Shown here: positions 46,755-62,736 of the stretch, in pieces
Position numbering within the stretch: the stretch's first letter is position 1
Layout: each line of letters begins with the position of its first letter
Assembly: GCF_001747105.1 (NCBI RefSeq)
Contig: NZ_MDGQ01000003.1
Coordinates: 868,001-932,000 of the forward strand
Direction of reading: 5' to 3'
Length of the DNA stretch: 64,000 bases
From: Roseivirga misakiensis
GTDB lineage: Bacteria > Bacteroidota > Bacteroidia > Cytophagales > Cyclobacteriaceae
Program-made: the position numbers and the translations under genes
The notes under the pieces: generated by a model
Database searches by the model: none
What the model was told of the DNA's origin: nothing
The model's input: the letters and a program-made list of their open reading frames with translations, nothing else

Positions 46755-47336
46755 CTATTTTGAGCGAGCAATAAATCGCTTTTGAAAGATCAAAATGGTG
46801 AAAACGCCTATGAAAATAGCCACATCGGCAATATTGAAGATTGGCCAGAGTGCCACTTTTTTTCCTCCCCAAAACGGAATCCAGTCGGCCACGTATCCTT
46901 CCCAGAAATCTAGATAGATCATATCGATTACTTGACCATGAAACCATGGGGTGATCACATCATAAGGGGCATTATCTAAAAGCACTCCATAAAATATGCT
47001 ATCGATTAGGTTACCGATAGCACCACCAAGAATGGCAGCAACACTCCAAAGAAGTCCAGCGTGATAGTTCTTTTTAGATAGATAATAAAGGATATACCCT
47101 ATCACTATCATGGCAAGCAACCTAAAGATGGTCAAGCTTAGCTTTCCATATTCAAAGCCAAAGCGTAAACCAAAGGCCATTCCTCTATTTAGAATGTAAT
47201 GGAGCTTAAACCAGTTACCGAAAACACTGATTTCGCCAGCTGACCCCATGGCCATATTAAAATGAACAAGAAGCTTAACCACCTGATCGATGATTATGAT
47301 ACCTAGTGTAAGTAGAAAATATCTTAGAGGCTTCAA
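46755..47336 (-). CDS. lspA: Lipoprotein signal peptidase (signal peptidase II)
   Basis: Aspartic protease of the inner membrane that removes the signal peptide of prolipoproteins. Four membrane helices; catalytic aspartates Asp112 ('GGAIGNLIDS') and Asp171 ('FNIADVAI'); 'NRGMAFG' (50-56) is the third conserved block. The 193-residue length, with a longer loop between helices 3 and 4, is usual in Bacteroidota. The start is TTG at 47336, the only start codon between the frame's upstream stop and the first helix. It follows ileS by seven bases. Confidence 0.94.
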   Translation of the reverse strand: MKPLRYFLLTLGIIIIDQVVKLLVHFNMAMGSAGEISVFGNWFKLHYILNRGMAFGLRFGFEYGKLSLTIFRLLAMIVIGYILYYLSKKNYHAGLLWSVAAILGGAIGNLIDSIFYGVLLDNAPYDVITPWFHGQVIDMIYLDFWEGYVADWIPFWGGKKVALWPIFNIADVAIFIGVFTILIFQKRFIARSK

Positions 47337-47343
47337 ATTTCGC

Positions 47344-50300
47344 TTATCTCACAGAAATATAGAGATTAAGTGTCCATTCATCAATCTCAACAGTCTGAGC
47401 ATCGCTTAATTCATCGACAATTTCTAGGCTCAAAGCTTGAGTTTCCTCGCAGATATAGTCCGAGTTTGCAGATAAAGCAGCATTAATCAGTGCCTCATTC
47501 TTAGCAACTTTAATGTCAATTTTATCCTGAACATCTAAGCCCATATCTTTTCTTAGATTTTGGACTCTATTGACCAAGTCTCTCGCAATCCCCTCTTGAC
47601 GTAATTCTTCCGATATTGTCATGTCCAAAGCAACGGTCGTTTTGCCTTCTGAAGCCACGGCCCATCCAGGAATATCTTCGCTGCTGATTTCTACATCTTC
47701 CAGCGATAATTGAATCGTTTCGCCTTCGATCGATAAATCGAACTGATTGTCTCTTTCTATTGCTGCAATTTCCTCTTGCCCCCACTGATTTACAGCGCCG
47801 GCAATAAATTTGACTTTAGGACCAAATTTTTGACCTAATGCCCTGAAATTTGGCTTGATTTTTTTCACTAAAATGCCTGATGTATCATCTAGGAACTCAA
47901 CAGTCTTAATATTTACCTCAGATTTAATCAGGTCGGCTACTGCCTCCACATGATGTCTAGTGGAATCATCTAAGACTGGAATCATGATTTTTGATAATGG
48001 CTGCCTTACTTTGATCTTCTCCTTTTTTCTGAGGGAATGCGTCAAAGAAGATATGGTCTGTGCCAAAGCCATTTGCTCCTCTAAATCTTGATTGATCATT
48101 GATTCATCAACTTGAGGGAAGTCCGTTAAATGTACTGACTCACCGTTGTCTTTTCCACTGACCGTATTTAGATCTTGATATAGTTTTTCCATGTAGAAAG
48201 GCGCTATTGGAGCACCAATCTTAGCGATGGTCATTAAACAGGTATATAGTGTTTGATAAGCTGCTCGTTTATCATCGTTGTATTCACCTTTCCAGAAACG
48301 CTTTCTGTTTAGGCGAACATACCAGTTACTCATTTCATCGGCTACGAAATCCATGATCATTCTGGCCGCACGAGTCGGTTCATACTCATCGTAAGCTTGG
48401 TCTACCGATTTAATCAGCGTATTGAGCCTAGATAGAATCCAACGATCGCTTTCTGGGCGATCACTTAATGGAACGGAAGCTTCTTCGTACTTAAAACCAT
48501 CGAGGTTGGCATATAGTGCAAAGAAGTTATAGGTGTTATAAAGTGTGCCAAAGAACCTTCTTTGCACCTCGCCAACTCCTTCAACATTGAATTTTAAGTT
48601 ATCCCAAGGGTTGGCATTTGAAATCATATACCAACGGGTAGCATCTGGACCGTATTCACCGATGGTTTTAAATGGATCAACTGCATTGCCTAATCTTTTA
48701 GACATTTTGTTGCCATTCTTATCAAGCACCAATCCGTTCGCTATTACATTTTTGAAGGCTACTTTATCATGTAGCATCACGCCAAGCGTATGTAGGGTAA
48801 AGAACCAACCTCTGGTTTGGTCGACTCCCTCGGCAATAAAGTCTGCCGGAAAACTCTTCTTGAAGATGTCGTCATTTTCGAACGGATAGTGCCACTGCGC
48901 ATAAGGCATGGCTCCCGAATCGAACCAAACGTCGATAAGATCGAGTTCTCGCTTCATTTTTTGGCCAGAATCACTGACTAATATGATATCGTCGACATAA
49001 GGTCGGTGTAAATCAAAGTCATCGCCGATTTGCTCCGCCATAAAACCAGCATCCACCGATTTCTGCACCTCAGACTTCAGTTCAGCTATTGAGCCGATGC
49101 ATTTTTGCTCTTTTCTATCTTCTGACACCCAAATAGGCAGTGGCGTTCCCCAATACCTAGATCTGCTCAGGTTCCAATCAACAAGATTCTCTAACCAGTT
49201 TCCAAAACGACCTTCTCCAGTTGAAGCTGGTTTCCAGTTGATCGTTTTATTCAATTCTACCAAGCGGTCTTTGTAAGCCGTGGTTTTAATGAACCAAGAG
49301 TCTAATGGATAGTAGAGTATTGGTTTATCCGTTCGCCAACAGTGTGGGTAGGAGTGCTCGTATTTTTCTACTTTAAATGCCTTATTCTCTTCTTTAAGCT
49401 TAATAGAGATAAGTACGTCTAGTGATTTCTCAGGGGCCTCCTCTGTTTTATAGTATTGGTTTTTTACATACATGCCTGCGAAGTCTGTAATCTCTTTTAC
49501 ATACTTCCCTTGTTTGTCAACAATCGGCACGTCGTTGCCTTCTTCATCTTTGACGAAGACTCCCGGTAAGTTGTATTGTACCGAAGTTTTAAAGTCATCG
49601 GCACCAAAGGTCTTTGATATATGTACTATACCTGTACCATCTTCAGTGGTCACGAAGTCACCAATTACCACGGTAAAAGCAGGCTTTTCTAACGGGATAT
49701 ACGGCATTAGTTGCTCGTAATCCATGCCTTCCATATCTCTTCCTTTAAAGCTGTCAATGACTTCAAAAGGAATCAGTTTATCACCTGGTTTGTAATCTTC
49801 TATTTTCAGGTCTTTGGCCTTATCATTGAAATAGTAGCTCAGTCTATCTTTCGCTAAAATCACATTGATTGGCTCGAAGGTATATTGGTTAAAGGTTTTA
49901 ACCTTTACATAGTTAATTCCAGCGCCAACAGCTAACCCATTATTAGCTGGCAGTGTCCATGGAGTTGTGGTCCAAGCTAGGATGTAGTCATTATCCGTAC
50001 CTGACACTTTGAACTGGGCCACCATGGAGGTGTCCTTAATATCTTGATATGTACCTGGCTGATTCAGCTCATGCGAGCTTAAACCCGTTCCAGCAGCCGG
50101 GGAATAAGGCTGGATCGTATATCCTTTATAAATTAAGTCTTTGTCGTAGAGTTCTTTGAGCATGCTCCACACAGACTCGATATACTCTTTTTCAAAAGTG
50201 ATATATGGATTTTCTAAATCAACCCAATAGCCCATTTTCTCGGTCAGGTCGTCCCAAATATCTTTGAAACGCATCACGGTTTCACGGCATTTTTGATTGT

Positions 50301-50649
50301 ACTCGTCTACCGATACTTTCTTACCGATATCTTCTTTTTTAATGCCTAATTCCTTCTCTACCTGTAATTCTACTGGCAAACCGTGGGTATCCCAACCGCC
50401 TTTTCTTTTTACCTGAAAGCCTTTTTGGGTTTTGTAACGACAAAAAATGTCTTTTACCGTTCTGGCCATTACGTGGTGAATACCAGGCGTACCATTTGCA
50501 GATGGTGGCCCTTCAAAGAAAGTAAACGTTGGCTTGCCTTCTTTTTCAGCAACAGACTTTTCAAAGATTCCGTTGTCTTTCCAGAACTGAAGTATGTCTT
50601 CTCCAACTTTGGCAAATTCGGGTTTCTTATACTCGTTGTACTTATTCAC
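47344..50649 (-). CDS. ileS: Isoleucyl-tRNA synthetase, type 2, with GxHH active-site motif
   Basis: Charges tRNA-Ile. The 1101-residue enzyme has a class I catalytic core, editing domain ('DWNLSRSRYWGTPLPIW', 'GWDTHGLPVE') and a eukaryote-like C-terminal region without the zinc-binding cysteines of type 1 enzymes, so it is IleRS2. The KMSKS loop is KMSKR at about 648-652. Where other class I enzymes have HxGH, this one reads Gly-Ile-His-His at residues 56-59 (codons GGT ATT CAC CAC, 50484-50473), the swapped GxHH form associated with hyper-resistance to mupirocin. The start is GTG at 50649, supported by AAGGAG five bases upstream (50655-50660). Confidence 0.97.
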   Translation of the reverse strand: MNKYNEYKKPEFAKVGEDILQFWKDNGIFEKSVAEKEGKPTFTFFEGPPSANGTPGIHHVMARTVKDIFCRYKTQKGFQVKRKGGWDTHGLPVELQVEKELGIKKEDIGKKVSVDEYNQKCRETVMRFKDIWDDLTEKMGYWVDLENPYITFEKEYIESVWSMLKELYDKDLIYKGYTIQPYSPAAGTGLSSHELNQPGTYQDIKDTSMVAQFKVSGTDNDYILAWTTTPWTLPANNGLAVGAGINYVKVKTFNQYTFEPINVILAKDRLSYYFNDKAKDLKIEDYKPGDKLIPFEVIDSFKGRDMEGMDYEQLMPYIPLEKPAFTVVIGDFVTTEDGTGIVHISKTFGADDFKTSVQYNLPGVFVKDEEGNDVPIVDKQGKYVKEITDFAGMYVKNQYYKTEEAPEKSLDVLISIKLKEENKAFKVEKYEHSYPHCWRTDKPILYYPLDSWFIKTTAYKDRLVELNKTINWKPASTGEGRFGNWLENLVDWNLSRSRYWGTPLPIWVSEDRKEQKCIGSIAELKSEVQKSVDAGFMAEQIGDDFDLHRPYVDDIILVSDSGQKMKRELDLIDVWFDSGAMPYAQWHYPFENDDIFKKSFPADFIAEGVDQTRGWFFTLHTLGVMLHDKVAFKNVIANGLVLDKNGNKMSKRLGNAVDPFKTIGEYGPDATRWYMISNANPWDNLKFNVEGVGEVQRRFFGTLYNTYNFFALYANLDGFKYEEASVPLSDRPESDRWILSRLNTLIKSVDQAYDEYEPTRAARMIMDFVADEMSNWYVRLNRKRFWKGEYNDDKRAAYQTLYTCLMTIAKIGAPIAPFYMEKLYQDLNTVSGKDNGESVHLTDFPQVDESMINQDLEEQMALAQTISSLTHSLRKKEKIKVRQPLSKIMIPVLDDSTRHHVEAVADLIKSEVNIKTVEFLDDTSGILVKKIKPNFRALGQKFGPKVKFIAGAVNQWGQEEIAAIERDNQFDLSIEGETIQLSLEDVEISSEDIPGWAVASEGKTTVALDMTISEELRQEGIARDLVNRVQNLRKDMGLDVQDKIDIKVAKNEALINAALSANSDYICEETQALSLEIVDELSDAQTVEIDEWTLNLYISVR

Positions 50650-50654
50650 TTTAA

Positions 50655-50660
50655 CTCCTT
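50655..50660 (-). promoter_or_regulatory. Shine-Dalgarno site supporting the GTG start of ileS
   Basis: AAGGAG on the minus strand lies five bases before the GTG. Strong Shine-Dalgarno sites are uncommon in Bacteroidota, so it helps to fix this non-ATG start. Confidence 0.6.
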
Positions 50661-50671
50661 TTCAATGGTAA

Positions 50672-53095
50672 TTACTTGTCGGTAGAACCTACAAATGGGT
50701 CGTTTTCTTTAATCAATAGGTTTTGTGTATCAATTTCTTCGTCTTCATCCTCTATGTAGAACTCGTAGTGTTCTATTAATGGATGAATTTTTTGGTTCCT
50801 TTTACCACTATCGAAAACCATGAGCAGTGCTGGAAGCAATGTCAGGTTTGTAATCATAGCAAAAAACAGGGTAAGCGAGGTGAGTAAACCTAGTGCTACT
50901 GTTCCTCCAAAATCCGAAAACACAAATATTATAAATCCAAAAAACAGGATGATCGACGTATACAACATACTCGAACCTGTTTCTTTAATACTATTACTAA
51001 TAGCGATCGGCACGAAGAAGTTCTTCGCGAAAAGCTCTTGTCTATATTTGGCCAAAAAGTGAATAGAATCATCCACCGAAATACCAAAGGCGATACTAAA
51101 TATGAGCGCTGTACTGGGTTTCAACGGTATGCCGAAGAATCCCATTATTCCAGCAGTCATTATTAATGGTATAAAATTCGGGATCAGGGAAATGATGATC
51201 ATCCTGATATTCGCGAAAAGTATAGCCATAATCACCGCAATGATCGCAAATGCTAGTAGAAGAGAGAATCGGAGGTTTTCAATTAAAAACTTGTTTCCCT
51301 TTACAAATAGTAGCGTCGATCCTGTAACAGCAGTGTCAATATTTTCATCGTCAAAGACCTTGTCAATTTCTGGTTGAACCACATTGGTTATCAACGAGTC
51401 CATTTTTTGAGACCCAATATCGGCGATCTTTAAGGAAACGCGCATCACTTGGCCTGTAGAGTCTACGAACGAGTTTAAGAAATCGGAGTCATCTGACCGA
51501 TTGCTCAAATAGCTAAGTATAACGTTCCGATCGCTGGGGCTTGGCAAACCATAGAATCGTTCGTTACCATTATAAAAGGCTTGCCTGACTGCTTTGGCGA
51601 AGGATACAATTGAAATAGGCGAAGAAATATTCTCTAATGGATCGAGTGCTTTTTCCAAGCGATCGACCTTTCGTAGATTCCTCGCGTTTATCGTTGATTT
51701 AGGTTTACCAAAGTCGATAATGATTTCTAGCGGCATTACCCCACTGAAATTATCCTCAAAAAAGTAAAGGTCTTGCTTTAAGGTAGACTGTTCTGGAATA
51801 TCGTCAACCATGTATGCCACGGAGTACAGCTTCGTCAGTCCGAAAATAGCGACACCCAATATAACCGCAGTTACGCCGAATACTCTATATCTATGTCGGT
51901 GAACAATTGAATCAAGCAGTCCGAGAAACTTGCCTACTGCTTTGAACTCTAAGTGTTGTAGGTGCTTTTTCTTCGGGCTTGGTAAATAAGAAAGTATCCC
52001 AGGAATTAGGATAATACTTACTATAAAGGTTGCTAGAATATTGATCCCTGCCACCAAACCAAACTCTTTAAGCAGCTTGATATCGGTTGTAATCAAAACC
52101 AAGAAACCGATGGCGGTAGTAAAATTGGTGATAAAGGTTACCAGTCCAATTTTTCGAACCATTCTGCTGAGCGCTTTGGGCTTATTGCCGTGCCGTGCAA
52201 ACTCTTGATGGTACTTATTAATAAGGTATACGCCATTGGGTATTCCTATAACGACTATTATGGACGGGATTAGTCCCATTAGAATAGTAATATTATAGTT
52301 AAAGAGCCCGATTGTACCCAGTACCCAGACTACAACGACGCTAATAACGATAAGGGGAACGAAAACGGAAGTCCACGATCTAAAGAAAAGGAAAAGTATA
52401 ATTGCAGTGATGCTTAGCGATAAAACGATAAAAAGCCTCAGTTCTTTATCGGTTTTTTGCTGCATGATCGTCCTAACGAAAGGCATACCTGAGTAGTGCA
52501 ACTCGATTTCCGTATCGGCTACAAACTCTTCTCCCAAGGCCTTAATCTCGTTTACCAGATCGTTTCTGCCTTTGGAATTGAGCACCTCTCGCTCCATGTT
52601 TACCAAAATGAGCGTCGCTCCATTTTCAGGATTCAGCAACTGACCTGTATACAGCTTTAACTTTACGGCTTCTTCTAGTAGCTTATCTAGTGCTTCTTGA
52701 GTTTCAGGGTAACCTTCCATTAAAGGAACCAAGTCGAAGCTTCTGTTGTCTCTGTTTTTAACTATACGCTGTAGTGATGCGAGCGAGATCACATTACTAA
52801 TGCCGTCCAAATTGGTAATGGTCTCGTTGAGCTTTTTGTACTTGTTGAAGTTCTCAAGCTCATATAGGGAGCTATCTTTTACGCCCAATACCAGGATATT
52901 ACCATCTTCACCAAACTTTTCTTTGAAGCTTTGGAAGTATTTGAAATTCTCGTCGGTTGATGGAACTGCGGTATTGAAGTTAAAAGCCATCTTCACATCT
53001 CTGGCTTGATAGGCCATAAAGCCAGTCAGCACAAAGATCGAGATGATCAATATCAACCTGTATTTCAGTACGATATGGGGGAGTTTAGACCACAT
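50672..53095 (-). CDS. MMPL/RND family transporter
   Basis: An 807-residue inner-membrane protein with twelve hydrophobic segments in two repeats, each with a large periplasmic loop after the first helix. The second half has the typical 'FSIAFGISVDDSIHFLAKY' and the first 'IPSIIVVIGIPNGVYLINKYHQEF' of MMPL/sterol-sensing-like RND proteins. Such proteins often export lipids or hopanoids, but the substrate is not evident. The C-terminal tail is strongly acidic. It sits between dgt (78 bases away) and ileS (22 bases). Confidence 0.9.
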   Translation of the reverse strand: MWSKLPHIVLKYRLILIISIFVLTGFMAYQARDVKMAFNFNTAVPSTDENFKYFQSFKEKFGEDGNILVLGVKDSSLYELENFNKYKKLNETITNLDGISNVISLASLQRIVKNRDNRSFDLVPLMEGYPETQEALDKLLEEAVKLKLYTGQLLNPENGATLILVNMEREVLNSKGRNDLVNEIKALGEEFVADTEIELHYSGMPFVRTIMQQKTDKELRLFIVLSLSITAIILFLFFRSWTSVFVPLIVISVVVVWVLGTIGLFNYNITILMGLIPSIIVVIGIPNGVYLINKYHQEFARHGNKPKALSRMVRKIGLVTFITNFTTAIGFLVLITTDIKLLKEFGLVAGINILATFIVSIILIPGILSYLPSPKKKHLQHLEFKAVGKFLGLLDSIVHRHRYRVFGVTAVILGVAIFGLTKLYSVAYMVDDIPEQSTLKQDLYFFEDNFSGVMPLEIIIDFGKPKSTINARNLRKVDRLEKALDPLENISSPISIVSFAKAVRQAFYNGNERFYGLPSPSDRNVILSYLSNRSDDSDFLNSFVDSTGQVMRVSLKIADIGSQKMDSLITNVVQPEIDKVFDDENIDTAVTGSTLLFVKGNKFLIENLRFSLLLAFAIIAVIMAILFANIRMIIISLIPNFIPLIMTAGIMGFFGIPLKPSTALIFSIAFGISVDDSIHFLAKYRQELFAKNFFVPIAISNSIKETGSSMLYTSIILFFGFIIFVFSDFGGTVALGLLTSLTLFFAMITNLTLLPALLMVFDSGKRNQKIHPLIEHYEFYIEDEDEEIDTQNLLIKENDPFVGSTDK

Positions 53096-53173: not shown

Positions 53174-54484
53174 TTATCTCATTCCCGGCAGTGAGATGCC
53201 CATTAGTTTGCGATAAAGACTCATGGCATTTGAATCAGTAAGGCCTGAAATATAGTCTAGCAGTGCACGTAACGACTCATAGGTGCTTTCGGAAGATTTG
53301 AGCTCTAATTTGACATCTGCTGGTAACAATCTGAAGGCAACGGACTGCCTTTTGTTCATTTGACCAATATTAAGAGCGGCCGGAACGAATGCCTCTAAAA
53401 GCCCATTCAACACATTGAATCCTGCGGCTTCAATTTCTACCACGTTTCTGGAACGGTAGATTTTATCGATAGACACTTTCTTGATATCCAACAAAGCTGG
53501 TTCAGCTGAAATCTCATCGGTTAAGGAAGTGTCATAAGACCCGTCCAGTATGGCTGCTTCGTTGTCCAGAAATAAGGTTTCGCACTGAGCGATCAATTCT
53601 CCAATGGCTAAGGCCCTAAGCAAACCTATTTGCTCAGCCTTACTATTAATAGCATTTAGTTTCTTACGATTAAACCGATCGCCAATTACTTCGGCATAAA
53701 GCTCAACGGTTTCTTCATGTGACACTAAGCCCAAATTGCAGCCATCTTCTAGGTCTATAATATGGTAACAGATATCATCCGCAGCTTCTACCAAAAAAGC
53801 CAAGGGGTGTCTCACCCATTGATGCTCGGCGAGCGCCCTTAATTGTAGGTCAGCCGCTAGTGACTTAAAGATTTCTCCTTCCGTATAATAGTAACCGTAT
53901 TTCTTCTGGCTTCTTCTTGGTTTAAAATTATCCGACACCTTCGAAGGCCTTGGATACTTAGTGAAAGCCGCTAGTGTGGGAGCCGTAAGCCTTAATCCTT
54001 GATAACCACTCTTGTTTAATAGTCTAAAACCTTGAGCATTACCTTCAAAGTTCACAAGATCGAACCATTGCTGCTCCTTAAAGGAGGATTCGAGTAAATC
54101 CTTATTCGCTAAAAAGTAGTCTGAGATGGCGTCTTCCCCTGAATGTCCGAAAGGTGGATTACCGATATCGTGTGCCAAAGCGGCAGAAGCTGTAATTACA
54201 CCCAAATCACTAGCGCTAAATTGTGTTTTGAGTTTAGGGTGTCTATCTAATATTTTGGAGCCAACCCCTCGCCCCAAAGATCGACCTACACTAGACACTT
54301 CTAAACTATGCGTCAAACGATTGTGTACAAAATCGTGCTCTGGTAAGGGGTGAACCTGTGTTTTATCCTGTAGTTTCCTAAAGGGATGTGAGAATATAAT
54401 TCGGTCAAAATCTCTATCAAACATGGACCTATCCATATTCTTTTCGTGAAATTCAGACCCTCCTAGAAGCACTTCCCAGTTCAT
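53174..54484 (-). CDS. dgt: dGTP triphosphohydrolase (dNTPase)
   Basis: HD-domain enzyme that splits dGTP (or other dNTPs) to deoxynucleoside and triphosphate, controlling dNTP pools. 436 residues. Metal-binding residues are visible: His59 in 'RLTHSLEV', the HD pair His105-Asp106 in 'AHDIGNPPFGHSGED', and a later 'EAADDICYHIIDLED' segment supplying the last aspartate. It is the first gene of the minus-strand group dgt, MMPL, ileS, lspA and divergent from susC. Confidence 0.93.
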   Translation of the reverse strand: MNWEVLLGGSEFHEKNMDRSMFDRDFDRIIFSHPFRKLQDKTQVHPLPEHDFVHNRLTHSLEVSSVGRSLGRGVGSKILDRHPKLKTQFSASDLGVITASAALAHDIGNPPFGHSGEDAISDYFLANKDLLESSFKEQQWFDLVNFEGNAQGFRLLNKSGYQGLRLTAPTLAAFTKYPRPSKVSDNFKPRRSQKKYGYYYTEGEIFKSLAADLQLRALAEHQWVRHPLAFLVEAADDICYHIIDLEDGCNLGLVSHEETVELYAEVIGDRFNRKKLNAINSKAEQIGLLRALAIGELIAQCETLFLDNEAAILDGSYDTSLTDEISAEPALLDIKKVSIDKIYRSRNVVEIEAAGFNVLNGLLEAFVPAALNIGQMNKRQSVAFRLLPADVKLELKSSESTYESLRALLDYISGLTDSNAMSLYRKLMGISLPGMR

Positions 54485-54851: not shown

Positions 54852-57842
54852 ATGAAAAAGTTTTTACTAACTCTACTTGTTATGTCAGTAGGTTTCCAAG
54901 GAGCGCTACTGGCTCAAACAAAGACTGTAACCGGTACGGTTACAGGTGGGGATGATGGTTTAGGAATCCCTCGTGTGAGTGTGACTATTAAGGGCACAAC
55001 ACGTGGAAATGCCACTAACCTAGATGGAACGTATTCTGTCGAGGTTGCATCCAACGAAACCCTAGTATTCTCTTTTGTAGGCTATGTCTCTAAAGAAGTA
55101 CTTGTGGGTAACCAAACTACGATTGACGTAGTATTAGAGCCTGATTACGCCGAACTAGAAGAGGTTGTAGTTGTAGGTTATGGATCTCAAGAAAGAAAAG
55201 AGATCACGAGTGCTGTAGCCAGCCTTAAGCCTGATGATTTTAACAGCGGGAACATTTCTAACCCGACTCAATTACTTCAAGGTAAAGTGGCAGGTCTTTC
55301 AATTACTAGACCAGGTGGTGACCCGAACGGCGGATTTAACATTCGTTTAAGAGGTATCTCTACTTTCGGTGCCAACTCATCTCCACTAATTGTATTGGAT
55401 GGTGTTCCTGGTGCTGACCTTGGTAATGTTGACCCTAATGACATTGCTTCAATTGACGTATTAAAGGATGGTTCGGCTGCTGCTATTTACGGAGCTAGAG
55501 GATCTTCTGGTGTTATCCTTATTACTACTACTAAAGGTAGCGGTGAAGATGGTGTAACTAGTATTTCATTGAACACTTTCGCTACAGTAGAAACTAAAGC
55601 TATTGATAAAATCAGCGTACTAAGCCCTACAGAGTTCGTTGCGGCAGGTGGTACTGATTTCGGTTCTGAAACTGACTGGGTAGATGTAATTACTCAAAAC
55701 TCACTGTCTTATGCGACTAACCTTAGTGTAAGCGGATCATTCGGTGGAACTTCTTACCGTGCTTCAGTTAACTACAGAAATAATGAGGGTATTGTAAAAG
55801 GTTTCAAAAACGAGAGATTAAATACTCGTTTAAATGTAACTCACAATGCGATCAATGATCGTTTAAGATTAACAGCTAACGTAAACATTACTAATGGTTC
55901 TTACGGTGCTAGAAACAACGGTCTTTTCGATTTCGCATTGACTTACAACCCAACTGCTCCAATATTTGATGATGGAACTTTAAGTTCTAACAGTGTTGGT
56001 GGATTCTTCCAGACACTTGCATCTTCTGATTACTTCAACCCTGAAGCACTTAGACAACAGCAAAAATTCTCTGGAACGACTAAAACGTCTTTACTTTCTT
56101 TCAGAGGTGAGTTTGATATTCTTGATAACTTGACTATCGCTTTACAGTACAACCAAGACAGATCTAATGGCCTAAACAGCCAAGTTTGGTCTAAAACTGA
56201 TTTTGCTCAAGGATTTGGACAGAACGGTCAAGCAGGTAGAACTGTAGATGATAGATTCACTGAAATCATTACAGGTACTTTAAACTGGGATACTGAGATT
56301 TCTTCTGACTTAAACGCAACATTATTAGTTGGTTTAGAGCAGCAAACTCAGAATTTCGAAGGTTTTGGTCTTCAGACTCGTCAGTTCTTATTTGACTCTT
56401 TTGGAGCTAACAACTTAGGTGCAGGTGCTATTGTAACTGGTCCTAACACGAACTATTACTCTTATAAGTCTCAAAACATCTTGAACTCTGCTTTCTTCAG
56501 AGCTAACTTGAATTACAAAGGTATTTACTTCGTATCTGCCAGTGTAAGAGCGGATTCTTACTCAGGATTTGGTGAGAACAACAAGACTGGTTACTTCCCA
56601 ACTGTTTCTGCAGGTGCTGAATTAACTGAGATTGCTGACCTTGGGCCTATTAGCCAATTAAAGTTCAGAGCTTCTTATGGTATCACTGGTGCACTTCCTG
56701 GCGCATCTGATTACGCACTTCCTGTTATTAGAAATGGTGGTAGAATTGACCTTGATGGTGATGCTAACACTACTGATGATATCAGAATTGCTCCACAGCA
56801 AACTCAAAATGCAAACCCTGATTTGAAATGGGAAACTAAAAAAGAGTTTAACATAGGTTTTGATTTCTCAATCCTTGATGGAAAAATCACTGGTACTACT
56901 GATTACTATACAAGAAACATTGAAGATCTAATCTTCAACATTATTGTACCAATTGGAGCACCAAGTGCATTTGACATTGGAAACTTCAATACAGTAAATA
57001 ATACTTGGGTAAACCTAGCTGATTTAAGATCTGCAGGTTTTGAGTTCGCCGCTGCTTACAACGGTTTAAAGTTAGGTGACGTTTCTTGGACACCTTCAAT
57101 CAACTTCACTATCTATGACAAAACGACTATTGAGTCTTTAACCTTAGATAATGGATTAGGATTTGAAAACCTAAGAGGTGGTAACCTAGGTTCTCCTGGA
57201 CAAAACAACACTCAGATCATCTTCAACGAAGTAGGTCAGACATTGGGTAACTTTGTAGGTCCAAGATTCATTGGAATCGACGAGAACGGTCAGTACATCT
57301 TAGAAGATGCTAACGGTGTTAGAGGTTCTTCTGCAGCTGATTTCAACATTGATGACTTACCAGTAATTGGTAACGCACTTCCAGATGCTGAATTCGGTAT
57401 CACTAACCAGTTTGGTTATGGTAACTGGAGCTTAATGTTCTTCCTAAGAGGTACAGTAGGTCATGAGTTATACAACTCATTCAGAGGTTTCTACGAAAAC
57501 CAAGATGCTAGTACTAGTGCTTGGAATAGTATCGTAACTGACAAAACACCTAATGTTTCTGCTTCTCCTACCTTCTCTGATCTATTCATTGAGGATGCAA
57601 GTTTCATCAGATTAGATAACTTGCAGCTAGGTTACAGACTTCCTTCGAATTCTGATTGGATCGAGAACATTAACCTTTACTTCGCAGCACAGAACTTATT
57701 CACTATTACGAATTACCAAGGTTTAGATCCTGAAGCGAGAAATGACGACGGTGGTAACCAATTAGTGCCAGGGTTAGAAAGAAGAAATACTTTCATCCCT
57801 ACTAGACAGTTCACTTTAGGTGTAAAATTCAATATTAAATAA
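54852..57842 (+). CDS. SusC/RagA family TonB-linked outer-membrane protein
   Basis: A 996-residue TonB-dependent importer barrel. Signal peptide ends near residue 22 ('LLAQ'); a carboxypeptidase-like beta domain covers ~25-95 ('VTGTVTGGDDGLGIPRVSV'); a TonB-contact segment 'LEEVVVVGYGSQ' at 102-113; then the plug (to ~225) with 'LQGKVAGLSI' and 'DVLKDGSAAAIYGARGSSG', and a 22-strand barrel ending 'RQFTLGVKFNIK'. Paired with susD eight bases downstream. Codon choice is strongly biased (TCT, GGT, AGA, ACT, GTT), suggesting very high expression. The imported nutrient cannot be read from sequence; no sugar enzymes are adjacent. Confidence 0.95.
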   Translation: MKKFLLTLLVMSVGFQGALLAQTKTVTGTVTGGDDGLGIPRVSVTIKGTTRGNATNLDGTYSVEVASNETLVFSFVGYVSKEVLVGNQTTIDVVLEPDYAELEEVVVVGYGSQERKEITSAVASLKPDDFNSGNISNPTQLLQGKVAGLSITRPGGDPNGGFNIRLRGISTFGANSSPLIVLDGVPGADLGNVDPNDIASIDVLKDGSAAAIYGARGSSGVILITTTKGSGEDGVTSISLNTFATVETKAIDKISVLSPTEFVAAGGTDFGSETDWVDVITQNSLSYATNLSVSGSFGGTSYRASVNYRNNEGIVKGFKNERLNTRLNVTHNAINDRLRLTANVNITNGSYGARNNGLFDFALTYNPTAPIFDDGTLSSNSVGGFFQTLASSDYFNPEALRQQQKFSGTTKTSLLSFRGEFDILDNLTIALQYNQDRSNGLNSQVWSKTDFAQGFGQNGQAGRTVDDRFTEIITGTLNWDTEISSDLNATLLVGLEQQTQNFEGFGLQTRQFLFDSFGANNLGAGAIVTGPNTNYYSYKSQNILNSAFFRANLNYKGIYFVSASVRADSYSGFGENNKTGYFPTVSAGAELTEIADLGPISQLKFRASYGITGALPGASDYALPVIRNGGRIDLDGDANTTDDIRIAPQQTQNANPDLKWETKKEFNIGFDFSILDGKITGTTDYYTRNIEDLIFNIIVPIGAPSAFDIGNFNTVNNTWVNLADLRSAGFEFAAAYNGLKLGDVSWTPSINFTIYDKTTIESLTLDNGLGFENLRGGNLGSPGQNNTQIIFNEVGQTLGNFVGPRFIGIDENGQYILEDANGVRGSSAADFNIDDLPVIGNALPDAEFGITNQFGYGNWSLMFFLRGTVGHELYNSFRGFYENQDASTSAWNSIVTDKTPNVSASPTFSDLFIEDASFIRLDNLQLGYRLPSNSDWIENINLYFAAQNLFTITNYQGLDPEARNDDGGNQLVPGLERRNTFIPTRQFTLGVKFNIK

Positions 57843-57850
57843 TAATAGAA

Positions 57851-59341
57851 ATGATAAAATATACTAAAACGACTGCCCTCCTACTAGCCATGCTATTCAT
57901 AGTAGCTGCTTGTGAGGAGCCTGAGCAGGAGATCTTCGACGGTATTACACCGGAAGAACTCGCGCAAAGTACCGATCCAGCGTTGATCGATGTACTTAAA
58001 GCATCTGCTTACCGTAGGATTATCGGTACATGGGGAGGTCATAACTCTCTATGGTCTATGCAAGAAGTAGCATCTGACGAATTAGTTATTGCCCATAAAG
58101 GTGCTGACTGGGAAGATGGTGGACAGTGGCTTAGAACTCACAGACACGAATATGTGCCTACTGAGGAAGCTATTAACAACGGATGGGATTACTGCTATGC
58201 TGCAGTAGGTGATATCAACTTGTTGATTAACCAAAATCCAAACGTAACTGCGCTTGTAGCTGAGCTTAAAGTGTTGAGAGCATTAATCTACTACTGGTTA
58301 ATTGATGCTTACGGTAACGTTCCTATCATCACCGAAGATGATACGGATCCAACGCCTCCAACACGTTCTAGAGCTGATGTATTCACTTTTATTGAGAATT
58401 CAATTATCGATAACATTGGTGAATTATCTACTGATAACACGAAGACAACTCTAAATCAGTGGTCTGCTAGAATGATCTTAGCAAAACTTTACTTAAATGC
58501 TGAGGTTTATACAGGAACAGCAAGATGGACAGATGCGGAAACTCAAATTGACTTAATCATCAACGGTGGTGTGTTTAGTTTAGAGAATAACTTCTTCTCA
58601 AACTTTACTACTAACAACGAAGGTTCAAGCGAAAATATCTTGACTTTACCATATGATGAAAACAATGCTGGTGGATTTAACATTGCTCAAATGACTGGTC
58701 ACTACCAGACTCAAGCAACTTTCGATCTACAAGAATCTCCATGGAATGGATATGCTTCCTTGGAAGAATTCTACAATGCATATGAAGACAATGATGCTCG
58801 TAAATCTGGATTCCTAGCAGGTCCTCAGTTTGCTTCTGATGGTTCTCGTTTAACTGACGACAACGCTGAGGCAAATGACCCTGATGGAGCAGACCTTACT
58901 TTTACTCCAGAAATCAACGAATTAGCACCTAACTCTTTAAGACAAGCGGGTGTTAGAGTTGGTAAGTGGGAATACAGAAGCGGAGCAACTCAAAGTTTGA
59001 GTAACGATTTCTCTTTATTCAGATATTCAGACGTTTTATTAATGAAAGCTGAAGTAATGCACAGAGCTGGAAACAGTACCGGAGCATTGGTTTACGTAAA
59101 TCAAGTAAGACAAAGAGCTGGAGCGGACCCATTAACTACACTGACTGACGAGATTCTTCTTGCAGAAAGAGGTAGAGAATTATTCGCTGAAGGACACAGA
59201 AGATCTGATTTAATTAGATTCGGTGCTTACAACGGAACATGGTGGGAGAAACCTGCATCTGATGCAACTAGAAACATCTTCCCTATTCCGCAAAATCAAA
59301 TTGATGCTAACGCAGATTTGGTACAAAACCCAGGTTATTAA
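57851..59341 (+). CDS. SusD/RagB family nutrient-binding lipoprotein
   Basis: Surface lipoprotein that closes as a lid over the SusC barrel. 496 residues, lipobox 'IVAAC' (Cys21), helical TPR-like N-terminal half ('LKVLRALIYYWLIDAYGNVP' at about 136-155) and C-terminal 'QVRQRAGADPLTTLTDEILLAERGRELFAEGHRR' type SusD block. It ends with 'FPIPQNQIDANADLVQNPGY', the usual SusD ending. It shares the codon bias of the susC gene and is followed by a strong terminator. Confidence 0.95.
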   Translation: MIKYTKTTALLLAMLFIVAACEEPEQEIFDGITPEELAQSTDPALIDVLKASAYRRIIGTWGGHNSLWSMQEVASDELVIAHKGADWEDGGQWLRTHRHEYVPTEEAINNGWDYCYAAVGDINLLINQNPNVTALVAELKVLRALIYYWLIDAYGNVPIITEDDTDPTPPTRSRADVFTFIENSIIDNIGELSTDNTKTTLNQWSARMILAKLYLNAEVYTGTARWTDAETQIDLIINGGVFSLENNFFSNFTTNNEGSSENILTLPYDENNAGGFNIAQMTGHYQTQATFDLQESPWNGYASLEEFYNAYEDNDARKSGFLAGPQFASDGSRLTDDNAEANDPDGADLTFTPEINELAPNSLRQAGVRVGKWEYRSGATQSLSNDFSLFRYSDVLLMKAEVMHRAGNSTGALVYVNQVRQRAGADPLTTLTDEILLAERGRELFAEGHRRSDLIRFGAYNGTWWEKPASDATRNIFPIPQNQIDANADLVQNPGY

Positions 59342-59369
59342 TTAGTATAACTTTACATAATCATTGAAA

Positions 59370-59398
59370 GGGCCCCGATAATTCGGGGCTCTTTTTTT
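59370..59398 (+). terminator. Intrinsic terminator after susD
   Basis: GCCCCGA (59372-59378) pairs with TCGGGGC (59383-59389), extended by one G-U and one G-C pair, with a four-base loop and a run of seven T (59392-59398). It separates the SusCD transcript from the CRTAC1 genes, which start 27 bases later. Confidence 0.92.
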
Positions 59399-59424
59399 GT
59401 CCTTTTTTTAGCATCTTTACCCCC

Positions 59425-62400
59425 ATGTTTCAAAGACTAAGGCCCATATTAGTTTTGCTGCTAATAATCACAATAACAAGTAGTTGTGATCGAGAAGAAA
59501 ACACTAATCAACTGTTTTCTAAAGTGAGTTCTAAGGCTTCTGGAATCACCTTTGAAAACCGTCTGGAATACACGGAGAAACTCAATGCGTATACTTACAA
59601 AAATTTCTACAATGGAGCTGGTGTTGCCATTGGTGACATCAATAATGACGGGCTATCGGACATCTACTTTTCCGGGAACCTTGTAGACAACAAGCTGTAC
59701 TTAAACAAAGGAAACTTAGAATTTGAAGATATTTCCATATCCGCTGGGGTTGATTGTCCGAATATTTGGTCTAGCGGAGTATCCATGGCCGATGTAAATG
59801 GCGATGGATTTCTAGACATATTCGTCTGTAAGTCAGGACCACTAGGTGGCGAAAAACGTTACAACCAACTTTTTATAAACAACGGTGATCTTACCTTCAC
59901 CGATATGGCCAAATCTTACGGTGTAGATGAAATAGGCCTTTCAATTCACTCCGCATTTTTTGACTATGACCGCGATGGTGATTTAGATTTCTACTTATTA
60001 AATAACAGCACAAGATCAGTTGGCGCCTACGACTTAAGAAAAGATCAAAGAGAAAAAAGAGACCCAAATGGTGGAAATAAACTTTATAGAAATGATGGAG
60101 ACCATTTCACAGATGTAAGTGAAGAGGCAGGTATTTATGGAAGTGCGATCGGCTTTGGTTTAGGAGTAACTATAGCTGATGTAAATCAAGACAACTGGCC
60201 TGACATATTTGTGTCAAACGACTTTTTCGAACGTGACTACCTATATCTCAATAATCAAGATGGCACCTTTAAAGAAGCTTTAGAAAACATGATTAATGAG
60301 ACCAGTATGGGTTCAATGGGTGCTGATATCGCCGATTTGAATGAAGACGGGTTTCCAGAAATCTATGTCACAGAAATGCTGCCCAAAACGAACGATCGGG
60401 TAAAGACAAAAACCCTTTTCGAAAGCTGGGATAAATATCAAGCGAACCTAGCCAGTGGATATCACCATCAGTTTACAAGAAATACACTACAACAAAACAT
60501 TGGAACAAACCCAGACAATCCAAAAGAAGTAGTTTTCAGTGAAGTGGGTAGGTTGAAAGGAGTTCATGCCACAGATTGGAGCTGGGGAGCGCTACTATTC
60601 GACTATGATAACGATGGCAAATCAGACATTTTTGTAGCGAATGGAGTATACAAAGACCTAACTGATCAAGATTATATCAATTTTTACGCTAATAACACGT
60701 TAGCCTTTGAGCAATACCGAGATGATAGTCTAATCGTCACAAAGCTTTTAGATGCCATTCCGACTGTACCTTTGGCAAATCACCTGTTTAAAAACCAAGG
60801 AGACTTCAACTTTCAAGATCAAGCAGTTCAAAGCGGATTAAAAGATAAAGTCTTTTCCAACGGGGCAGCCTATGGCGATTTAGACAATGATGGAGACCTT
60901 GAATTGGTCGTGAATAACATCAATAGCCCAGCAATTCTCTACGAGAATAAGACCAACGAAAACACAACAAACAACTACCTAAAAATTGAATTTGAGCCAA
61001 GTGAGTCTCACAGCCTTTTTGGTACTAAAGTTAAAGTCGTGACAGGCAACCTTAGCCAAACCAAAGAATATCATCCTGTAAAAGGCTATATGTCATCCAT
61101 GGATCACCTATTACATTTCGGTATAGGCGAAAAAACGACTATTGACAAAATTGAAATTGTTTGGCCAGATGATACAAGGTCAACCCTAAAAGAAGTTAAA
61201 GGAAACCAGCAACTTACCGTCTCCCAAAAGGAATTGCCAGCTTCCAAACCAACTACTGGAAAAACACAGAAACCTCTTTTTCAGAAAACGACTTTTGCAG
61301 ATCCAATCTATCATAAAGAAAATCAGTTTTCAGATTTCGATCGTGACCGTTTATTATTTCAGATGAGCTCTAACGAAGGACCAGCAGCTGCCGTTGGTGA
61401 TGTTAACAACGACGGATTGGATGATTTTTATCTTGGTGGTGCAAAAGGTAAAAACGGCACCCTCTTTATCCAAAATGAAAAAGGTGAGTTAAATGCTACC
61501 TCCCCTTTTGAAAACAACGCCTTATCGGAAGATACTGACGCTACCTTTGTCGACATTGATAATGACAATGACCTTGATCTATTAGTAGCCAGTGGTGGTT
61601 ATGAATATGGTGCAAATGACCCTTCTTTCCGGGATCGAATTTACCTCAATGATGGCAAAGGAAATTTCCAACGACTGGATTGGACAAAGTTCACAGCAGT
61701 AAGTGAAAGTTCTAGTTTTCTAAAACCAATTGACTTCGATGCTGATGGCGACTTGGATTTAATTGCAGGAACCCGAAGCATCCCTTTTGCCTATGGCGTA
61801 CCAGGAAGCATTCATCTATACGAAAACAAAAACAACCAGTTCACCGAAGTCCTCGGTCAAGAAGTAGGCGTTTTTAAAGCGCTAGGAATGCTTACAGACG
61901 CCGAAGTAGCAGATATTGATGCCGATGGAGATGAGGACATCGTTGTATTAGGAGAATGGATGCCAATCATCATATTTACTAATACCAATGGGAAATTTAC
62001 CAAAACGGAATTACCAAATACCGAAGGACTTTGGCATGATATAAGCCTATCAGACCTCAATAATGATGGACGTTTGGACATTATAGGCGGCAATCATGGA
62101 AATAATAGTCGGCTTAAAGCGGATGCTGATCACCCATTGAGAATGTACATTAACGACTTCGATAAAAATGGAAGCATCGAGCAAATAGTAACTCAATTTG
62201 AAGGAGATAAGTCCTACCCCATCACTTTATTGCCAGATTTAGTCAAGCAATTACCAGGTTTGAGGAAGAAATACGTGAAACACGAAAGCTATAAAGACCA
62301 AACCATAACAGATATTTTCGAAGCCGTATCCCTAGAAAACTCCATTACGCTGAGCGCAAAAATGCTGGAAACGACCGCTTTCATTCAAGACGAAAACGGA

Positions 62401-62736
62401 GGCTTCAACAGCATCAGTCTTCCAAACGAAGTACAGTTTTCACAGGTTTTCGCCATACTTCCGACCGATATTAATGGAGACGGCGCCATAGATTTGATTT
62501 TGGGTGGAAACCAGACTAGAATGAAGCCCGAAATGGGTATCAATAATGCCTCATATGGCTTAACTTTACTCAACGATGGCAATGGACAATTCAAAGCCCT
62601 AAAGCCATCTGAATCAGGTATTTTGGTAAAAGACGATACCCGTCAAATCCAAAAGATTAATCTGGGTGGACAAGCGATATATTTATTTGTCAGAAACAAT
62701 GCAAAAAGTATTGGCTACAAAAAAATTGAAGAATGA
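59425..62736 (+). CDS. CRTAC1-like FG-GAP/ASPIC lipoprotein
   Basis: A 1103-residue surface or periplasmic lipoprotein (lipobox 'ITSSC', Cys21). Repeated Asp-rich calcium-binding FG-GAP/VCBS blades are clear ('GVAIGDINNDGLSDIYFSGN', 'SMADVNGDGFLDIFVCKSG', 'ADLNEDGFPEIYVTE', 'GDLDNDGDLELVVNN'), forming a predicted beta-propeller in each half. An ASPIC/UnbV domain at ~530-600 ('HPVKGYMSSMDHLLHFGIG', 'IEIVWPDDT') separates them. Such proteins are often found behind SusCD pairs in Bacteroidota, possibly binding glycans or proteins at the surface. Its TGA overlaps the ATG of the next gene. Confidence 0.92.
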   Translation: MFQRLRPILVLLLIITITSSCDREENTNQLFSKVSSKASGITFENRLEYTEKLNAYTYKNFYNGAGVAIGDINNDGLSDIYFSGNLVDNKLYLNKGNLEFEDISISAGVDCPNIWSSGVSMADVNGDGFLDIFVCKSGPLGGEKRYNQLFINNGDLTFTDMAKSYGVDEIGLSIHSAFFDYDRDGDLDFYLLNNSTRSVGAYDLRKDQREKRDPNGGNKLYRNDGDHFTDVSEEAGIYGSAIGFGLGVTIADVNQDNWPDIFVSNDFFERDYLYLNNQDGTFKEALENMINETSMGSMGADIADLNEDGFPEIYVTEMLPKTNDRVKTKTLFESWDKYQANLASGYHHQFTRNTLQQNIGTNPDNPKEVVFSEVGRLKGVHATDWSWGALLFDYDNDGKSDIFVANGVYKDLTDQDYINFYANNTLAFEQYRDDSLIVTKLLDAIPTVPLANHLFKNQGDFNFQDQAVQSGLKDKVFSNGAAYGDLDNDGDLELVVNNINSPAILYENKTNENTTNNYLKIEFEPSESHSLFGTKVKVVTGNLSQTKEYHPVKGYMSSMDHLLHFGIGEKTTIDKIEIVWPDDTRSTLKEVKGNQQLTVSQKELPASKPTTGKTQKPLFQKTTFADPIYHKENQFSDFDRDRLLFQMSSNEGPAAAVGDVNNDGLDDFYLGGAKGKNGTLFIQNEKGELNATSPFENNALSEDTDATFVDIDNDNDLDLLVASGGYEYGANDPSFRDRIYLNDGKGNFQRLDWTKFTAVSESSSFLKPIDFDADGDLDLIAGTRSIPFAYGVPGSIHLYENKNNQFTEVLGQEVGVFKALGMLTDAEVADIDADGDEDIVVLGEWMPIIIFTNTNGKFTKTELPNTEGLWHDISLSDLNNDGRLDIIGGNHGNNSRLKADADHPLRMYINDFDKNGSIEQIVTQFEGDKSYPITLLPDLVKQLPGLRKKYVKHESYKDQTITDIFEAVSLENSITLSAKMLETTAFIQDENGGFNSISLPNEVQFSQVFAILPTDINGDGAIDLILGGNQTRMKPEMGINNASYGLTLLNDGNGQFKALKPSESGILVKDDTRQIQKINLGGQAIYLFVRNNAKSIGYKKIEE

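Follow-up and report, generated by a model that had tools for sequence, protein, structure and literature searches.

A GxHH signature motif in the sole type 2 isoleucyl-tRNA synthetase of Roseivirga misakiensis and its distribution across the Bacteroidota

The window analysed here, a stretch of 64,000 nucleotides from Roseivirga misakiensis, carries on its minus strand the ileS gene for a type 2 isoleucyl-tRNA synthetase (IleRS) of 1101 amino acids (47344..50649). The product matches TIGR00392 (isoleucine--tRNA ligase) with 995.2 bits against a cut-off of 621.4, from position 3 to 858 of the 861 of the model, and profile searches found the domains PF00133, PF08264 and PF19302 (DUF5915). The frame begins with GTG, and all IleRS residue numbers given here hinge on this choice of start. 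Since the sequence AAGGAG, a possible ribosome-binding site, lies five bases upstream of the GTG (50655..50660, minus strand), we regard the numbering as sound. At residues 56-59, which align with the HIGH motif of E. coli, the class I signature HxGH is swapped to Gly-Ile-His-His (50473..50484, minus strand). This exchange had been reported in the initial annotation and is read directly from the codons GGT ATT CAC CAC (G56, I57, H58 and H59; window positions 50484-50473); the aligned relatives agree. With Gly at the first and His at the third place of the motif (GIHH, 56-59), the protein belongs by sequence to the G/AXHH type 2 IleRSs, which have Gly or Ala first and His third. The same kind of reading gave the canonical HxGH in the IleRS of E. 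coli and in the ValRS of one relative. In the own genome, ValRS, LeuRS and MetRS read HMGH, HVGH and HIGH, respectively, and the swap is therefore confined to IleRS; CysRS reads HLGN. A pseudogene is ruled out by the open frame.

When compared with structures in the PDB, the protein was closest to four chains of Priestia megaterium IleRS2 (845-856 bits). The best of these, 8c8w, reads PGVHH in the aligned stretch and is an engineered swap mutant. Thermus thermophilus IleRS2 came next (778 bits). No type 1 chain exceeded 329 bits, so that the enzyme is closer to type 2 than to type 1 enzymes (856 versus 329 bits). It also contains HYPFE (residues 587-591; 48877..48891, minus strand), a type 2 or eukaryote-like mark described as a signature of the eukaryote-like IleRS group (PMC4861432). 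Marks of type 1 enzymes, among them the bacterial signatures Tyr59 and NKIL (PMC4861432), are replaced, with Ser50 for E. coli Tyr59, ARTV for NKIL and Leu640 for the Phe of HGF. No CxxC occurs in the whole protein and a single Cys (1067) lies within its last 241 residues; for comparison, the E. coli enzyme ends with CPRC...CGRC. As had been annotated, the C-terminal zinc cysteines of type 1 are thus absent. Judged by its sequence, the window enzyme is a type 2 IleRS, an assignment that was likewise made before and is borne out by the PDB ranking, HYPFE, the replaced type 1 marks and the absence of the zinc-binding C-terminal subdomain.

Seven bases downstream of ileS lies lspA, encoding a lipoprotein signal peptidase (46755..47336, minus strand; PRK14788 with 229.8 bits, cut-off 200; PF01252). 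An operon of the two genes had been proposed; the common strand and the 7-base gap stand, and the operon as such is a reading from strand and spacing only. We compared 73 of the nearest loci (those of at least 15,000 bases among the best 80 of at least 592, 7 shorter ones being left out). In 63 of them lspA lies downstream of ileS in the same orientation, and in 18 it does so at a distance of no more than 153 bases, with gene boundaries taken from tblastn. E. coli likewise has ileS-lspA, and this neighbourhood is ordinary. On the other side, a gene for an MMPL/RND-type membrane transporter (50672..53095, minus strand; PF03176) ends 22 bases upstream of the ileS start. A relative of it adjoins ileS in 14 of the 73 loci (from the best 80 of at least 592; tblastn boundaries), and the transporter appears to be a mere neighbour. 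Further along, a dGTP triphosphohydrolase-like gene is found at 53174-54484 (TIGR01353, 346.7 bits; 191 bits with an anti-phage dGTPase model, below its cut-off of 400). On the plus strand, translations from 54852-62736 show SusC-like and SusD-like genes followed by a large VCBS/ASPIC-like repeat protein, a stretch that looks like a glycan-uptake locus.

The genome (4.45 Mb, 5 contigs) is scored 99.95% complete and contains one gene above the ileS cut-off of TIGR00392. Weaker matches to this model are ValRS, LeuRS, CysRS and MetRS, and no second IleRS was found by this search. The expectation that this is the housekeeping copy was therefore upheld: the gene encodes the sole, housekeeping type 2 IleRS of this Cytophagales bacterium. 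A mobile resistance gene of the MupA/MupB type was ruled out, as the two models (NCBIfam NF000257 and NF000258) gave 817.5 and 789.6 bits, far below the cut-off of 1900. Copy number was judged for the own genome, for 23 genomes of the phylum and for a set of 19 (18 relatives and the own genome). Among the 23 genomes, 22 have one gene above the ileS cut-off, in three of them as two pieces of one frame, and one has none. In genome G211, a weak full-length match (344.9 bits) was considered as a possible IleRS1 and rejected; from its ValRS-type signature NVTGVLHMGH and the lack of a C-terminal CxxC it is read as a ValRS. Genome G176, scored 100% complete, gave no ileS match, and in G208 ileS is split between two contigs, neither piece reaching the cut-off. 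Both genomes were left out of the motif reading, and these oddities are probably assembly gaps.

Next to this genome, GxHH was found in every relative that was read. All 80 nearest loci (the best 80 of at least 592 matching stretches) carry it, 71 as GIHH and 9 as GVHH. Identity runs from 81% in Roseivirga seohaensis down to about 60% in Flavobacterium and its relatives. As far as can be told from the titles, these best 80 of at least 592 are from Bacteroidota, with one labelled Thalassobius as the exception. Thalassobius is an alphaproteobacterial name. The contig in question, titled uncultured Thalassobius, bears a Bacteroidota-like ileS with 65% identity; it is presumably from a metagenome bin and mis-binned or mislabelled. 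For a wider view, 198 genomes drawn evenly from the phylum were searched, of which 197 have ileS above the cut-off. The motif was read in 112 of these 197, with one to several per genus, covering the 102 other genera of the sample; 34 of the 112 are from the same class or nearer and 78 from other classes. GxHH is present in 112 of 112 (96 GIHH, 14 GVHH, 1 GMHH and 1 GLHH). These 112 genomes correspond to 115 loci minus three, L146, L147 and L148, which cover again the genes of L145, L143 and L144, respectively; L146 is without the motif, its match being limited to the second half of the gene. L149-L153, matches below the cut-off without an IleRS frame, were also dropped. In addition, nine IleRS genes were read out of the 18 relatives besides the own genome, three from the same genus and six from other families of the order, and all nine are GIHH.

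No canonical HxGH was thus seen in IleRS among the 112 phylum genomes, the best 80 of at least 592 loci and the nine further relatives; the 112-genome set and the 80-locus set may overlap, so that the counts are not additive. Sequencing error or chance as the source of GxHH is ruled out by this agreement (80/80, 112/112 and 9/9), and the same counts show that the motif is compatible with housekeeping function. The weight that the initial annotation gave the swap implied something special to this genome, and the comparison does not bear this out. GxHH looks like the standard form of the phylum and the one expected for the lineage, not like a peculiarity of a single genome. The kind of enzyme is already known, and what is new here is the distribution of GxHH across the phylum. 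In the texts searched we found no statement of a phylum-wide fixation of GXHH and a single paper on the motif, that of Brkic et al. from 2023 (PMC10485003). No word beginning with Bacteroid occurs in the main text of that paper; its tree figure, source data and supplements may well show such enzymes.

Around the motif, the residues PP, NG, P55, Gly56, His58, His59 and Arg63 are invariant in the 112 genomes and the 80 nearest loci (best 80 of at least 592). Ser50 (50500..50502, minus strand) aligns with E. coli Tyr59, the Tyr of PPYANG, whose role is described in PMC4861432. This position is occupied by Ser in all 34 same-class sequences and in all of the nearest ones (best 80 of at least 592); all 78 sequences from other classes have Thr. 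The second class I signature reads KMSKR, not KMSKS (residues 648-652; 48694..48708, minus strand). Of the 34 same-class sequences 33 have KMSKR, as do all of the nearest ones (best 80 of at least 592); among the 78 from other classes just 2 have it, while 68 have KMSKS. In these alignments, KMSKR is a class-level change in the second catalytic motif. Since GxHH spans a wider range than KMSKR, the swap in the first motif is presumably older.

In the CP1 post-transfer editing domain, FGADD with the conserved Asp352 is present (49594..49608, minus strand), and in the alignment WTTTPW and Asp352 are intact. Within 49594-49620, the usual HxAP reads HISK, with Lys346 in place of Pro. All 78 sequences from other classes and 31 of the 34 from the same class retain this Pro, and among the best 80 of at least 592 nearest sequences 10 have Lys and 3 have Ser. 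The window enzyme has the Gly of the EG motif (Gly608), as do 190 of the 192 relatives in the alignment (the 112 and the best 80 of at least 592). In Staphylococcus aureus IleRS1 this Gly contacts mupirocin; it is lost in Streptomyces griseus IleRS2, and the loss was suggested to add to resistance (PMC4861432). As Gly608 is kept, one possible further contributor to resistance is absent here.

The link between GxHH and mupirocin hyper-resistance, already named in the initial annotation, is in print and was shown by mutation in other enzymes. Brkic et al. found G/AXHH in 86 of 379 IleRSs, all of them of type 2; exchanging the motif in three type 2 enzymes shifted the mupirocin Ki about 175- to 823-fold (PMC10485003). 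Changing ALHH to HVGH in DrIleRS2 lowered the Ki 823-fold, and changing HVGH to GVHH raised it about 175-fold in TtIleRS2 and about 430-fold in PmIleRS2, while type 1 enzymes lose activity upon the same exchange (PMC10485003). In type 2 enzymes the tip of the signature helix is displaced, which leaves room for a third His, with its nitrogen positioned where the first His of HxGH would be. Binding of mupirocin pushes the motif back, and the third His then clashes with the drug (PMC10485003). By analogy with the enzymes of P. megaterium and D. radiodurans, His58 would stand in for the absent first His in catalysis, and Gly56 would fill the place left by that His, as the displaced type 2 helix tip permits. 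Binding of mupirocin would force the motif back, so that His58 would clash with the drug, and the Ki of the window enzyme is expected to lie far above those of canonical type 2 enzymes. The catalytic role of His58, its clash with the drug, the height of the Ki and the resistance of the organism are inferred by homology; the analysis itself showed the sequence, the type, the single copy and the occurrence throughout the phylum.

Resistance of the enzyme and of the organism to mupirocin is a well-founded prediction. The size of the effect would depend on the background, and hyper-resistance in size is not guaranteed: the absolute Ki was 35 uM for the mutant GVHH-TtIleRS2 and 6600 uM for the natural ALHH-DrIleRS2 (PMC10485003). 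In the literature searched, most of it outside subscription, we found no mupirocin Ki or MIC for any Bacteroidota species or IleRS, and no structure of the window enzyme or of any Bacteroidota IleRS. In PMC13085705, a model predicted that mupirocin at 5 ug/ml raised the diversity of Bacteroidaceae on plates, which fits resistance without proving it. Taken together, we are highly confident that this is a sole housekeeping type 2 IleRS in which His58 would replace the first His, with a Ki predicted to be raised and a swap that probably dates from an early ancestor of the phylum.

Other explanations were weighed. IleRS1/IleRS2 pairs occur in some Bacillaceae (PMC10485003), and the protein could by this precedent be an additional IleRS that serves resistance alone, next to a sensitive IleRS1 that is hidden; with only one gene above the cut-off in a 99.95% complete genome, and with ileS adjoining lspA as it does in E. 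coli, we consider this extremely improbable. For the motif in general, Brkic et al. inferred that GXHH was gained at least twice and reverted once, and they supposed antibiotic selection, and the motif does raise mupirocin resistance (PMC10485003). Yet an adaptation to mupirocin-like compounds in the present habitat, confined to this organism or its nearest relatives, is very unlikely, since GxHH in all 112 genomes of 102 other genera and in all nearer relatives read excludes a recent local event. Without an exception in the 102 other genera, the swap looks old and fixed, and a recent local cause is unlikely. The ancestral claim rests on this distribution within the phylum, by which the swap most probably goes back to an early ancestor.

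Such an ancient swap may also have been near-neutral and tolerated by type 2 sites, resistance being a by-product in an organism that may never meet the drug. Fixation without exception across the phylum sample, the normal catalytic efficiency of natural DrIleRS2 and the reversion in Deinococcus-Thermus (PMC10485003) are in favour of this. However, the swap requires two substitutions, and engineering it into enzymes impaired kcat and KM by up to 10-fold (PMC10485003), so that a free neutral path is disfavoured, and ancient selection by some inhibitor is also conceivable. We therefore see near-neutrality as a serious possibility, if somewhat short of an even chance. A further proposal adds proofreading: a single fixation of the swap at the root of the phylum would have made intrinsic mupirocin resistance a by-product at the level of the phylum, and the enzymes would be without tRNA-dependent pre-transfer editing, like the GXHH enzyme of S. 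griseus, and rely on CP1 alone. Yeast IleRS edits though it is also without Tyr59 (PMC4861432); replacement of Tyr59 alone therefore does not decide the loss of editing, which counts against this proposal, and we regard it as tentative and rather unlikely. If true, it would tie the motif swap to a different way of proofreading throughout one of the largest bacterial phyla.

The single window gene itself is of modest meaning, as it has the form expected for its lineage. More generally, the swap affects the catalytic motif that is best conserved among class I synthetases and shows that two residues can exchange positions with function kept, and mupirocin resistance becomes predictable from sequence through the swapped motif. 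By this survey the swapped form appears to be the rule in the phylum, giving a large natural set for probing why type 2 enzymes tolerate it. The same set could test whether resistance or something else, for example proofreading, explains the spread of the swap.

Among known systems, the G/AXHH type 2 IleRSs (DrIleRS2 with ALHH, SgIleRS2 with GXHH; PMC10485003) share with the window enzyme the swapped signature, the status of sole housekeeping enzyme and the predicted hyper-resistance. The window enzyme differs from these two in having GIHH, KMSKR and Ser at the place of Tyr59 and in coming from the Bacteroidota, and it is known here from sequence. Unlike S. griseus IleRS2, it has also kept the Gly of the EG motif. 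P. megaterium IleRS2 (8c8u, 8c8v and 8c9d; engineered GVHH, 8c8w) gives the best PDB matches, over residues 18-1090 of the window IleRS, but the natural enzyme has HVGH and is a second copy beside IleRS1. T. thermophilus IleRS2 (1ile, 1jzq and 1jzs; 778 bits over residues 4-876) is also of type 2, but has HVGH and a mupirocin Ki of 0.20 uM. MupA and MupB belong to the same type 2 family as the window IleRS; they are acquired genes by their family name, whereas ileS of the window is chromosomal and the sole copy.
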